A DNA stretch of 64,000 nt, taken from assembly GCF_001713455.1 (NCBI RefSeq), contig NZ_CP016464.1, positions 1,660,001-1,724,000 of the forward strand, read 5' to 3'. This document shows, piece after piece, positions 43,013 through 46,240 of this stretch; within the stretch, counting starts at the first letter, position 1; each line of letters begins with the position of its first letter. The position numbers and the translations under genes were made by a program. The notes beneath the pieces are model-generated. The model searched no databases. It saw nothing but the letters and a program-made list of their open reading frames with translations, and was not told where the DNA came from. The DNA comes from Bosea sp. RAC05. GTDB taxonomy: Bacteria > Pseudomonadota > Alphaproteobacteria > Rhizobiales > Beijerinckiaceae.

Positions 43013-44275
43013 ATGAGCTCCCCCAACCGCACCACCCACACCCGCCTGACCTCCTATCCCGAGCCCGGCAGCGCCGCGACGCGCTTTCCCATCCGCTGGG
43101 GCGCGGAAACGCCGGCCGAGCGCGGCCCGGTGATCGCGTCGACCACGACGCCGGCCGACCGCAACGTCATCGGCGCCCATGGCGGCTCCTATTCGGTCTA
43201 CCGGGCGCTGGCGATCTCGGCGCGCGCCATGAACCCCTCGCAGCGGCCCGATTTGCACAACACCCACCCGACCGCCGAGATCCCCGCGCAGCCGCAATGG
43301 TTCGAGCCCGGGAAAATCGTCTCGATGGACCCGTTCGGCCACCGCGTCGCGCAGGATTTCGGCGGGCTGATCGGCGAGGGCATCGACATCCGCCCGACCA
43401 TCGCCATCACCAAGGCCCGCCTCAACCTGCCGGAGATCCTGGCGGCGATGGGCGCGCATCGGCTGGCGCCCGACGAGCACATCCTGCACGCTTCCGGCGA
43501 CATCAGCGTCACCAAGATCGCGATCGACCCGGTCTGGCATCTGCCGGGCATCGCCGAGCGCTTCGGCACGAGCGAGGCCGAGCTGCGCCGCACGCTCTTC
43601 GAGCAGACCGGCGGCATGTATCCCGAGCTGGTGACGCGGCCGGACCTGCGCGTCTTCCTGCCGCCGATCGGCTCGATCACGGCCTATGTCGTCGGCGAGG
43701 TCTCGGCCATCACCGATCCGAAGCGCCGCGTCTCCTGCCGCGTCCATGACGAGTGCAACGGCTCCGACGTCTTCGGCTCCGACATCTGCACCTGCCGGCC
43801 GTATCTCGTGCACGGCATCGAGGAGGCGGTGAAGGAGGCGCAGGGCGGCGGCGTCGGGCTGATCGTCTACAACCGCAAGGAGGGCCGCGCGCTCGGCGAG
43901 GTCACCAAGTTCCTCGTCTACAACGCCCGCAAGCGCCAGGAGGGCGGCGACAGCGCCGCGACCTATTTCGAGCGCACCGAATGCGTCGCCGGCGTGCAGG
44001 ACGCCCGCTTTCAGCAGCTCATGCCCGACGTGCTGCACTGGCTCGGCGTCACCCGCATCGACCGGCTGATGTCGATGTCGAACATGAAATACGACGCCAT
44101 GGTCGAGAGCGGCATCGAGATCGGCGAGCGCGTCGCCATTCCCCCCGAGCTGATCCCGCCCGATGCCTCGGTCGAGATCGAGGCCAAGAAGGCCGCGGGC
44201 TACTACTCCCCCGACGGCGCGCCGGGCGACAACGTCCTCAAGGCGACCGTCGGCCGCGACCTCGACAAGTTCTGA
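43013..44275 (+). CDS. GTP cyclohydrolase II-like protein of uracil catabolism (URC1-type)
   Basis: About 420 residues. The second half holds the GTP cyclohydrolase II core: RVHDECNGSDVFGSDICTCRPYL with the zinc cysteines, and LIVYNRKEGRALGEVTK. The long N-terminal half is typical of the URC1 branch rather than riboflavin RibA. ATG 43013 is chosen because ATG 42971 lies in the loop of a terminator-like hairpin. The next genes encode DUF1688 and uracil phosphoribosyltransferase, the other parts of the yeast-type URC pathway, so a role in uracil ring degradation is inferred. Confidence 0.9.
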   Translation: MSSPNRTTHTRLTSYPEPGSAATRFPIRWGAETPAERGPVIASTTTPADRNVIGAHGGSYSVYRALAISARAMNPSQRPDLHNTHPTAEIPAQPQWFEPGKIVSMDPFGHRVAQDFGGLIGEGIDIRPTIAITKARLNLPEILAAMGAHRLAPDEHILHASGDISVTKIAIDPVWHLPGIAERFGTSEAELRRTLFEQTGGMYPELVTRPDLRVFLPPIGSITAYVVGEVSAITDPKRRVSCRVHDECNGSDVFGSDICTCRPYLVHGIEEAVKEAQGGGVGLIVYNRKEGRALGEVTKFLVYNARKRQEGGDSAATYFERTECVAGVQDARFQQLMPDVLHWLGVTRIDRLMSMSNMKYDAMVESGIEIGERVAIPPELIPPDASVEIEAKKAAGYYSPDGAPGDNVLKATVGRDLDKF

Positions 44276-44283
44276 AAGCACCG

Positions 44284-45501
44284 ATGCCCGATCGTGACCC
44301 GGAGGCGCTGCGCCTCCTTTTGAAGCCCGCCGCCATCCGGGCCCGCGCGCAGGAGATGCTGCGCCTCGGGCTGGCCGGCGACCTCTTGCATTTCACCGTC
44401 CATCCGGAGCGGCTCGAGGCCTGCGCCGATTACGTTCTGGAGACGATCCGGGCCCATTACCCGACGCTCGAGATCCCCTTCCACGCCCGCTGGCGCCATT
44501 TCACCGTCGCCGGCATGGACCGCTGGGCCGTGCTCGACCGGGCGGCGCATTTCGCCGATGCGGGCGAGCGCGGCCGTGCGGCCTACGACCTCGCCGTCGT
44601 CAGCGTGCTGCTCGATGCCGGCGCCGGGCCGGACTGGTCCTATCGCGACGCGGTCAGCGGCAAGCGGATCGGCCGCTCGGAGGGGCTGGCGCTCGCCTCG
44701 CTCGACATGTTCGCCGCCGGCCTGTTCTCCGCCGATCCGGCACAGCCCCTGCGGGCGGATGCGGCGGCGCTGAAGCGGCTCGATCCGGCGGCGCTGACGG
44801 CGGGCTTCCAGTCCACGCCGGGCAACGCCCTTCTGGCGGTCGAGGGCCGCGCCGCCCTGCTCAACCGGCTCGGCGAGGAGCTCGAGCGCCGCGGCCTGTC
44901 GCGGCCAGGCGACCTGTTCGACCGCTTCCTCGCCTCGGCCGAGACCGGGAGCCTGCGCGCGAGCCACATGCTCGGCGAGGTCCTGGCCACCTTCGGCGGC
45001 ATCTGGCCCTCGCGCCTGACGCTGGCGGGCATCGCGCTGGGCGACACCTGGCGCCACCCGCTGATCGCGCAGGGCACCACCACGGCCGGGCTCGTGCCCT
45101 TCCACAAGCTCTCGCAATGGCTGACCTATTCGCTGATCGAGCCGCTGCAATGGGCCGGCATCGCCGTCGTCGACATCGACGAACTGACCGGCCTGCCGGA
45201 ATACCGCAATGGCGGCCTCCTGCTCGATGGGGGCGTCATCGCGCTGAAGGATGCGGGCGAGGCGGGGCGCGCCCATGAGGCGGGCTCGACGCTGGTCGTC
45301 GAATGGCGGGCGCTCACGGTGGCGCTGCTCGACGAGATCGGCGCGCTCATCCGCCAGCGGCTCGGCCGCTCGCCGGCGGAACTGCCGCTCGCCAAGGTTC
45401 TGGAAGGCGGCACCTGGGCGGCAGGCCGGCGCATCGCGGCCGAGAGGCGCCCCGGCGGCGGCCCGCCCTTGACGATCATCAGCGACGGCACGGTATTCTG
45501 A
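44284..45501 (+). CDS. DUF1688 protein (URC4-type)
   Basis: 405 residues. Sequence such as IPFHARWRHFTVAGMDRW, YDLAVVSVLLDAGAGPDWSY, SEGLALASLDMFAAG and FHKLSQWLTYSLIEPL is that of DUF1688, the family of yeast URC4, needed to grow on uracil as nitrogen source but with uncertain chemistry. It starts 8 bases after the GTP cyclohydrolase II-like gene, so the two form one operon. No signal peptide. Confidence 0.92.
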   Translation: MPDRDPEALRLLLKPAAIRARAQEMLRLGLAGDLLHFTVHPERLEACADYVLETIRAHYPTLEIPFHARWRHFTVAGMDRWAVLDRAAHFADAGERGRAAYDLAVVSVLLDAGAGPDWSYRDAVSGKRIGRSEGLALASLDMFAAGLFSADPAQPLRADAAALKRLDPAALTAGFQSTPGNALLAVEGRAALLNRLGEELERRGLSRPGDLFDRFLASAETGSLRASHMLGEVLATFGGIWPSRLTLAGIALGDTWRHPLIAQGTTTAGLVPFHKLSQWLTYSLIEPLQWAGIAVVDIDELTGLPEYRNGGLLLDGGVIALKDAGEAGRAHEAGSTLVVEWRALTVALLDEIGALIRQRLGRSPAELPLAKVLEGGTWAAGRRIAAERRPGGGPPLTIISDGTVF

Positions 45502-45515
45502 AGTAGGTCGAGAAC

Positions 45516-45574
45516 CCCTCAGCCCTCATCCTTCGAGACGCCGCTGCGCGGCTCCTCAGGATGAGGGCTGAGGG
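45516..45574. repeat. Palindromic repeat family B, compact copy
   Basis: A 59-base near-perfect palindrome, CCCTCAGCCCTCATCC at the left and GGATGAGGGCTGAGGG at the right, in the gap between the DUF1688 gene and upp. Shares CTTCGAGACG and CTCCTCAGGATGAG with the element inside ispE. Confidence 0.85.
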
Positions 45575-45589
45575 CAAGGAAGAAGGGGA

Positions 45590-46240
45590 ATGGACCGAAT
45601 GACCAAGCAGCAGGACGGGGTCACCGTCGTCGATCACCCGCTGGTGCAGCACAAGCTCACGCTGATGCGCGAGAAGGACCGCTCGACCAAGAGCTTCCGC
45701 CAGCTCCTCAACGAGATCGGCATGCTGCTCTGCTACGAGGTCACGCGCGACCTGCCGGTCGAGATGGTCGAGATCGAGACGCCGCTGCAGACCTCGCGCC
45801 AGCCGGTGATCTCCGGCAAGAAGATGGTCTTCGCGCCGATCCTGCGCGCTGGCGTCGGCTTCCTCGACGGCATGCTGGAACTCGTTCCCGCCGCCCGCGT
45901 CGCCCATATCGGGCTCTATCGCGACCCCGACACGCTGCAGGCGGTCGAGTACTACTTCAAGGCGCCCTCGGACATCGCCGACCGCATGGTCGTGGTGATG
46001 GACCCGATGCTCGCCACCGCCAATTCGGCCGTCGCCGCCATCGACCGCCTGAAGGAGCGCGGCGCCCGGGATCTGCGCTTCGTCTGCCTGCTCGCGGCAC
46101 CCGAGGGCATCGAGCGCCTGCGCGGCGCGCACCCGGAAGTCCGCATCTGGACGGCGGCGATCGACGAGAAGCTCAACGACCACGGCTATATCGTGCCGGG
46201 CCTGGGCGATGCCGGCGACCGCATGTTCGGCACGCGCTGA
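45590..46240 (+). CDS. upp: Uracil phosphoribosyltransferase
   Basis: 216 residues. VVDHPLVQHKLTLMREKDRSTKSFRQLL at the N-terminus (spanning about residues 13-40), the flexible-arm region ILRAGVGFLDGMLELVP, the PRPP loop VVVMDPMLATANSA and the uracil-binding GYIVPGLGDAGDRMFGT. It makes UMP from uracil and PRPP. In the URC pathway the same enzyme (URC6 in yeast) is the entry step, which fits its position after the two URC genes. GGAAGAAGGGGA precedes the ATG. Separated from the DUF1688 gene by a palindromic repeat. Confidence 0.96.
   Translation: MDRMTKQQDGVTVVDHPLVQHKLTLMREKDRSTKSFRQLLNEIGMLLCYEVTRDLPVEMVEIETPLQTSRQPVISGKKMVFAPILRAGVGFLDGMLELVPAARVAHIGLYRDPDTLQAVEYYFKAPSDIADRMVVVMDPMLATANSAVAAIDRLKERGARDLRFVCLLAAPEGIERLRGAHPEVRIWTAAIDEKLNDHGYIVPGLGDAGDRMFGTR

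Follow-up and report, generated by a model that had tools for sequence, protein, structure and literature searches.

The DNA considered here is a window of 64,000 nucleotides from Bosea sp. RAC05 (contig NZ_CP016464.1, positions 1,660,001 to 1,724,000), in which three genes lie in a row on the + strand between positions 43013 and 46240 (Table 1). They encode, in this order, a GTP cyclohydrolase II-like protein, a DUF1688 protein and a uracil phosphoribosyltransferase (UPRTase), the families known as URC1, URC4 and URC6 in the URC pathway of uracil catabolism. An earlier note on this DNA, made from the sequence alone, had described this gene row and its families and had read it as a bacterial URC operon. 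The layout is as it said: the stop of URC1 ends at 44275 and the ATG of URC4 stands at 44284, leaving a gap of 8 bases, and 88 bases separate URC4 from the UPRTase gene. The URC1 reading frame contains an additional in-frame ATG at 42971, ahead of the 43013 start, and the Pfam scan used open reading frames (ORFs) starting at 42971 for URC1 and at 44281 for URC4. The family assignments are likewise borne out, with scores of 723 bits for the first protein (NF005536), 466 bits for the second (PF07958) and 251 bits for the third (Pfam; 298 bits with NF001097).

Table 1. Features of the locus, in positions of the window
Feature	Position	Strand	Basis
URC1, GTP cyclohydrolase II superfamily member (GTP_CH_N + GTP_cyclohydro2)	43013..44275	+	Pfam, NCBIfam, tree, residues
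URC4, DUF1688 protein	44284..45501	+	Pfam, model, fold matches, profile match with controls
Candidate catalytic K275 of URC4 (codon)	45106-45108	+	profile alignment, invariance
Candidate catalytic E306 of URC4 (codon)	45199-45201	+	profile alignment, invariance
Palindrome (hairpin) in the URC4-UPRTase gap	45518..45572	none	matched on both strands
Uracil phosphoribosyltransferase (upp/URC6)	45590..46240	+	Pfam, NCBIfam
Intrinsic-terminator-like hairpin with T tail, 3' of the UPRTase gene	46262..46291	+	12 pairs, 9 G-C

The conservation of the trio was followed in related loci, the best 80 of at least 578 confirmed ones, nearly all from Alphaproteobacteria by title and close to the query by selection. 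All three genes occur together in 74 of the 80 and, by best hit, stand in the order URC1-URC4-UPRTase on one strand in 73 of those 74; in L094, where this is not so, a further UPRTase in reverse orientation accompanies the one in order. The remaining loci lack URC1 nearby (three), UPRTase (two) or both (one). UPRTase is thus present in 77/80, and in one locus without it (L048) the contig stops just past URC4. Where URC1 is not nearby, it is encoded elsewhere in the same genome (4/4). As to the individual departures, URC4 stands apart from URC1 in L057, L088, L097 (Enterovirga) and L089, the pairing being otherwise strict, and the Kaistia granuli locus (L062) has the URC1-URC4 pair with no UPRTase within its 17.2 kb. 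In a more even sample of 398 genomes of the phylum, DUF1688 was found in 26, the window's genome included, and NF005536 exceeded its cut-off in the same 26; the two genes are adjacent in all of them, 23-225 bases apart by profile match. The linkage goes beyond coincidence, with no p-value claimed, as the sampled genomes are related to each other. Across 28 genus labels, and with a crude ORF caller, no other neighbouring cluster is as widespread as the trio; in some loci only, a transporter, an amidohydrolase, DeoA or DeoB is a recurrent neighbour.

The first protein carries the GTP_CH_N (260 bits) and GTP_cyclohydro2 (60 bits) domains, and one alternative is that it is simply the riboflavin-pathway enzyme RibA, that is GTP cyclohydrolase II, with its neighbours placed there by chance. 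Superfamily, zinc-ligand and catalytic residues in common speak for this alternative, as do the names of its nearest relatives: NF005536 is named GTP cyclohydrolase II, and so are the closest solved structures by their PDB titles (7eev and 7ej3, matching residues 16-432 of the 434-residue protein with 561 bits). No publication on 7EEV turned up in a literature search. The profile search that the earlier note proposed as a check, and the phylogeny by which it could have been refuted, give a different answer. In particular, the protein scores 723 bits against the URC1-type model NF005536 (PRK07198; cut-off 403) and stays below the cut-offs of the six RibA-type models among the NCBIfam matches listed, for instance 59.6 against 148 for NF001591 and 48.9 against 205.85 for TIGR00505. 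In a tree built from 28 of the 79 collected sequences, a very long 100/99 branch separates 24 URC1 rows from four RibA-type rows; one of the latter, RibB-RibA, likewise sits on a long branch. Moreover, the genome encodes a separate RibA (NF006456, 498 bits, cut-off 464) and, elsewhere, a RibB-RibA gene that passes the cut-off for its RibB part and does not reach the bifunctional models. In view of scores, tree, other RibA genes and strict linkage to DUF1688, RibA identity was rejected as extremely improbable.

As a separate observation, the RibB-RibA gene (L003 1489-2766, - strand, C2 near 4179475 of the same genome) begins with a Cro/C1-type helix-turn-helix-like stretch (21.1 bits, cut-off 22), and its cyclohydrolase part has no zinc Cys motif in the alignment; this protein is possibly RibB-active only.

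Placement of the first protein on a URC1 branch distinct from RibA is therefore supported, and it is predicted to open the ring of uridine monophosphate (UMP). Specifically, C248, C259 and C261 together with Y303, D330 and R332 (numbered from 43013) are invariant in 75/75 URC1 rows, an alignment that left out two loci having URC1 in part only. Counted along the alignment, they correspond to C54, C65 and C67 and with Y105, D126 and R128 of Escherichia coli GTP cyclohydrolase II (2bz0), where we take the Cys residues to be zinc ligands and the Tyr, Asp and Arg residues to be catalytic. Given this invariance, URC1 retains the hydrolytic machinery of GTP cyclohydrolase II.

The second protein matches DUF1688 (PF07958) with 466 bits (cut-off 25) over positions 2-420 of the 420-position profile; its closest named relative, from Bosea, is 99% identical, and relatives bear the NCBI name 'URC4/urg3 family protein'. 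A fold search with its structure model matched Qng1/DUF2419-like folds at 16-19% identity, and it was only through this search and the Pfam Q_salvage model that the likeness to Qng1 surfaced. In the Sphaerobacter Qng1 protein, chains mutated as K199C and D231N mark K206 and D238 in the alignment to P0156. A profile alignment places K275 of URC4 on this Lys (K199) and E306 on this Asp (D231), with Q278, T302, Y307, R308, E340 and R342 of URC4 common to both families. K275 and E306 are invariant in 48/48 rows of one alignment (A2) and 20/20 of another (A1). A poor model of the fragment 270-382 (pLDDT 63.3) was not used. Two residues of the Sphaerobacter protein, D298 and W302, are quoted as active-site residues (PMC11592518). 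Their correspondence to E374 and W378 of URC4 is not claimed, the profile alignment ending earlier and spacing alone pointing to it.

Further motifs recur among the 80 loci. HK[LM]xQW occurs in all of them (HKLLQW in L108), as do LTxLxEYRNGG and HxRWRHF, whose counts come partly by selection, since patterns within these two motifs retrieved the loci. The C-terminal DGTVF is found in 79/80, L108 having DGSVF, and five of the 80 deviate from the pattern WR[AS][LM]TV.

URC4 thus appears, from these alignments, to be a relative of Qng1 outside DUF2419, because the Lys and the surroundings of the carboxylate are shared and the carboxylate is Glu, not Asp. We consider it likely that DUF1688 and DUF2419 form one superfamily of nucleotide N-ribohydrolases, and that URC4 would split N-ribosylurea-5'-phosphate into urea and ribose-5-phosphate by means of a conserved Lys-Glu pair, the Glu replacing the Asp of the animal queuosine enzyme. 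Several results weigh against this proposal. The URC4 of the window gives no match to the Q_salvage profile (PF10343), and among ten URC4s scanned singly L121 alone matched, with 17.3 bits against a cut-off of 25. URC4 queries in the form of a single sequence and of 48-row, 14-row C-terminal and 15-row profiles retrieved no DUF2419 chain from the PDB. The hhalign probability between URC4 and DUF2419 is 28-32%, on thin alignments, and of nine DUF2419 proteins compared with DUF1688 one passes the cut-off, two fall just below it and six give a weak match or none. In addition, the catalytic Asp position of Qng1 is a like-charged Glu306 in all 48 and all 20 rows, so the exact mechanism may differ, and a shared fold does not prove a shared reaction. 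A PF10343 scan of the 398 genomes gave no match, but its controls were silent too, and no statement on absence is drawn from it. Our literature search found nothing linking DUF1688 with DUF2419; subscription journals lay mostly outside it, which leaves novelty unproven.

With respect to the substrate, model and alignments suggest that URC4 is an N-ribosylurea(-5'-phosphate) N-glycosidase. The phosphorylated form would be the likeliest, because Qng1 acts primarily on queuosine as its 5'-monophosphate (PMC11592518); in vivo, ribosylurea itself may be cut instead, a point that weakens the scheme. The earlier note had called the chemistry of URC1 and URC4 poorly defined. This stands in general, and is too strong for URC4, since a modelling paper reports that the yeast enzyme converts ribosylurea to urea (PMC7530994). 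The predicted nucleotide N-glycosidase fold of URC4 agrees with this as a separate line of evidence.

Taken together, these data lead us to propose with good confidence that the trio is a bacterial URC operon for the use of uracil as nitrogen source, in a scheme of four steps. UPRTases are established to convert uracil and phosphoribosyl pyrophosphate to UMP, and the third gene product would carry out this first step. URC1 would then hydrolyse the UMP ring at N3-C4 and N1-C6 to give N-ribosylurea-5'-phosphate and malonate semialdehyde. In the third step, as fold and active site suggest, URC4 would cleave the N-glycosidic bond of the former, yielding urea and ribose-5-phosphate. Finally, a urease encoded elsewhere in the genome could liberate ammonia from urea. 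The C3 piece may be reduced to 3-hydroxypropionate or oxidised by malonate/methylmalonate semialdehyde dehydrogenase; both this product and its fate are presumptive, a weak side of the scheme.

The content of the genome fits into this picture. It has one DUF1688 protein, one URC1, one UPRTase, one urease alpha subunit and one malonate/methylmalonate semialdehyde dehydrogenase above cut-off. Profile searches of the genome gave no match to RutA and nothing above cut-off for PreA (dihydropyrimidine dehydrogenase). For this reason, among the routes tested (the oxidative barbiturate route not being one of them), URC alone appears to have recognised key enzymes. Against this, two dihydropyrimidinase-type genes are present, although without a recognised dihydropyrimidine dehydrogenase.

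The operon UPRTase is the genome's only one above the family cut-off; salvage and breakdown would therefore converge on UMP, and URC1 must be expected to be under some control. The same fact agrees with another explanation, by which the same enzymes would serve as an overflow valve burning excess UMP or uracil for pyrimidine balance, with urea and ribose-5-phosphate as by-products: the route starts at an essential metabolite, through an entry common to salvage and breakdown, and the trio of Schizosaccharomyces pombe is induced by uracil itself (PMC2174524). We regard this explanation as unlikely, given that URC allows Lachancea (Saccharomyces) kluyveri to grow with uracil as its sole nitrogen source (PMC7530994), that the Bosea genome has a urease for the urea and no key enzyme recognised for either the Rut or the reductive route, and that two Microvirga loci have, within the same 17 kb as the trio, a gene for thymidine phosphorylase (L058) or phosphopentomutase (L064), neighbours that fit nucleoside breakdown.

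There is, in our view, still less chance that URC1 opens N3-C4 only and that URC4 cuts the ribosyl bond of a ureidoacrylate nucleotide, releasing ureidoacrylate and ribose-5-phosphate. A Qng1-like fold would suit that N-glycoside equally well, as it does not determine which base is removed; such a route, however, would require a RutB-like step on free ureidoacrylate, which gives carbamate and not urea. In yeast, moreover, ribosylurea is reported to precede the URC4 step and urea to follow it (PMC7530994).

The URC assignment made in the earlier note is accordingly upheld, as the families match the S. pombe set, URC1 lies off the RibA branch and the trio is found together in most of the related loci. 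The bacterial linkage that it pointed out is real and not new. Andersen in 2008 reportedly described linkage of URC genes in bacteria. For bacteria as well as fungi the URC reading of the trio has been published before, a 2013 paper calling it, with reference to earlier work, a widely conserved operon of both (PMC3869809); the NCBI family name of URC4 tells the same.

Concerning the remaining features, the palindrome between URC4 and the UPRTase gene has the look of a dispersed repeat and not of a conserved regulatory element, because the same element occupies the same gap in just one of the 80 loci (Bosea L042) and its 13-base core occurs twice more in the window, at 31430 and 31532. The hairpin behind the UPRTase gene is the probable end of the operon; the terminator scan of 42600-46500 is statistically weak, with three sites against 1.3 expected. 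No promoter-like site was found in 42600-46500, and no Rfam family reached its cut-off in 40800-47500. Upstream of URC1 and divergent from it, a 474-residue ORF (41422-42846, - strand) matches nothing in Pfam or NCBIfam at E <= 0.01. Downstream, also on the - strand, lie two adjoining DUF1236 proteins (46325-46822 and 46896-47438), probably a tandem duplication, and, outside the operon, genes for TctC, TctA and TctB of a tripartite tricarboxylate transporter with a LysR-type regulator (47515-51562).

Few routes are known by which pyrimidines serve as nitrogen source; URC is one of them, and the chemistry of its two signature enzymes is poorly defined. Through its tie to an N-glycosidase family of solved structure, URC4 gains a likely reaction and candidate catalytic residues, and this genome, with its single copies above cut-off and no recognised Rut or reductive key enzyme, is convenient for tests.

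Among known systems, RibA of E. coli (2bz0) has in common with URC1 the C-terminal catalytic domain with its three Cys and Tyr/Asp/Arg, whereas URC1 has an N-terminal domain of its own (PF12471), its own branch and, presumably, UMP instead of GTP as substrate. Qng1/DUF2419 (PF10343), the queuosine-5'-monophosphate N-glycosidase, shares with URC4 the fold and the catalytic Lys; URC4 alone has the invariant motifs HxRWRHF, RSEGL and C-terminal DGTVF, sits in a different operon and would release urea as the base. In animals, Qng1 frees queuine, a vitamin-like base, from the sugar phosphate that carries it, and the link would thus join a catabolic enzyme of bacteria and fungi to a queuine-salvaging animal enzyme. 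The Rut and reductive (Pyd) pathways perform the same task as URC, and Rut, too, ends in 3-hydroxypropionate; URC differs in acting on the nucleotide UMP, and the genome lacks the RutA and PreA matches noted above. Closest of all are the fungal sets, the URC genes of L. kluyveri and urg1 (GTP cyclohydrolase II family), urg2 (UPRTase-like) and urg3 (DUF1688) of S. pombe, which represent the same families as the Bosea trio, as URC1/urg1, URC6/urg2 and URC4/urg3 (PMC2174524, PMC3869809). The urg genes of S. pombe are clustered, as in Bosea, where the trio forms one compact operon on one strand, and urea, split in yeast by the urea amidolyase URC3,5 (PMC7530994), would in Bosea presumably be split by urease.

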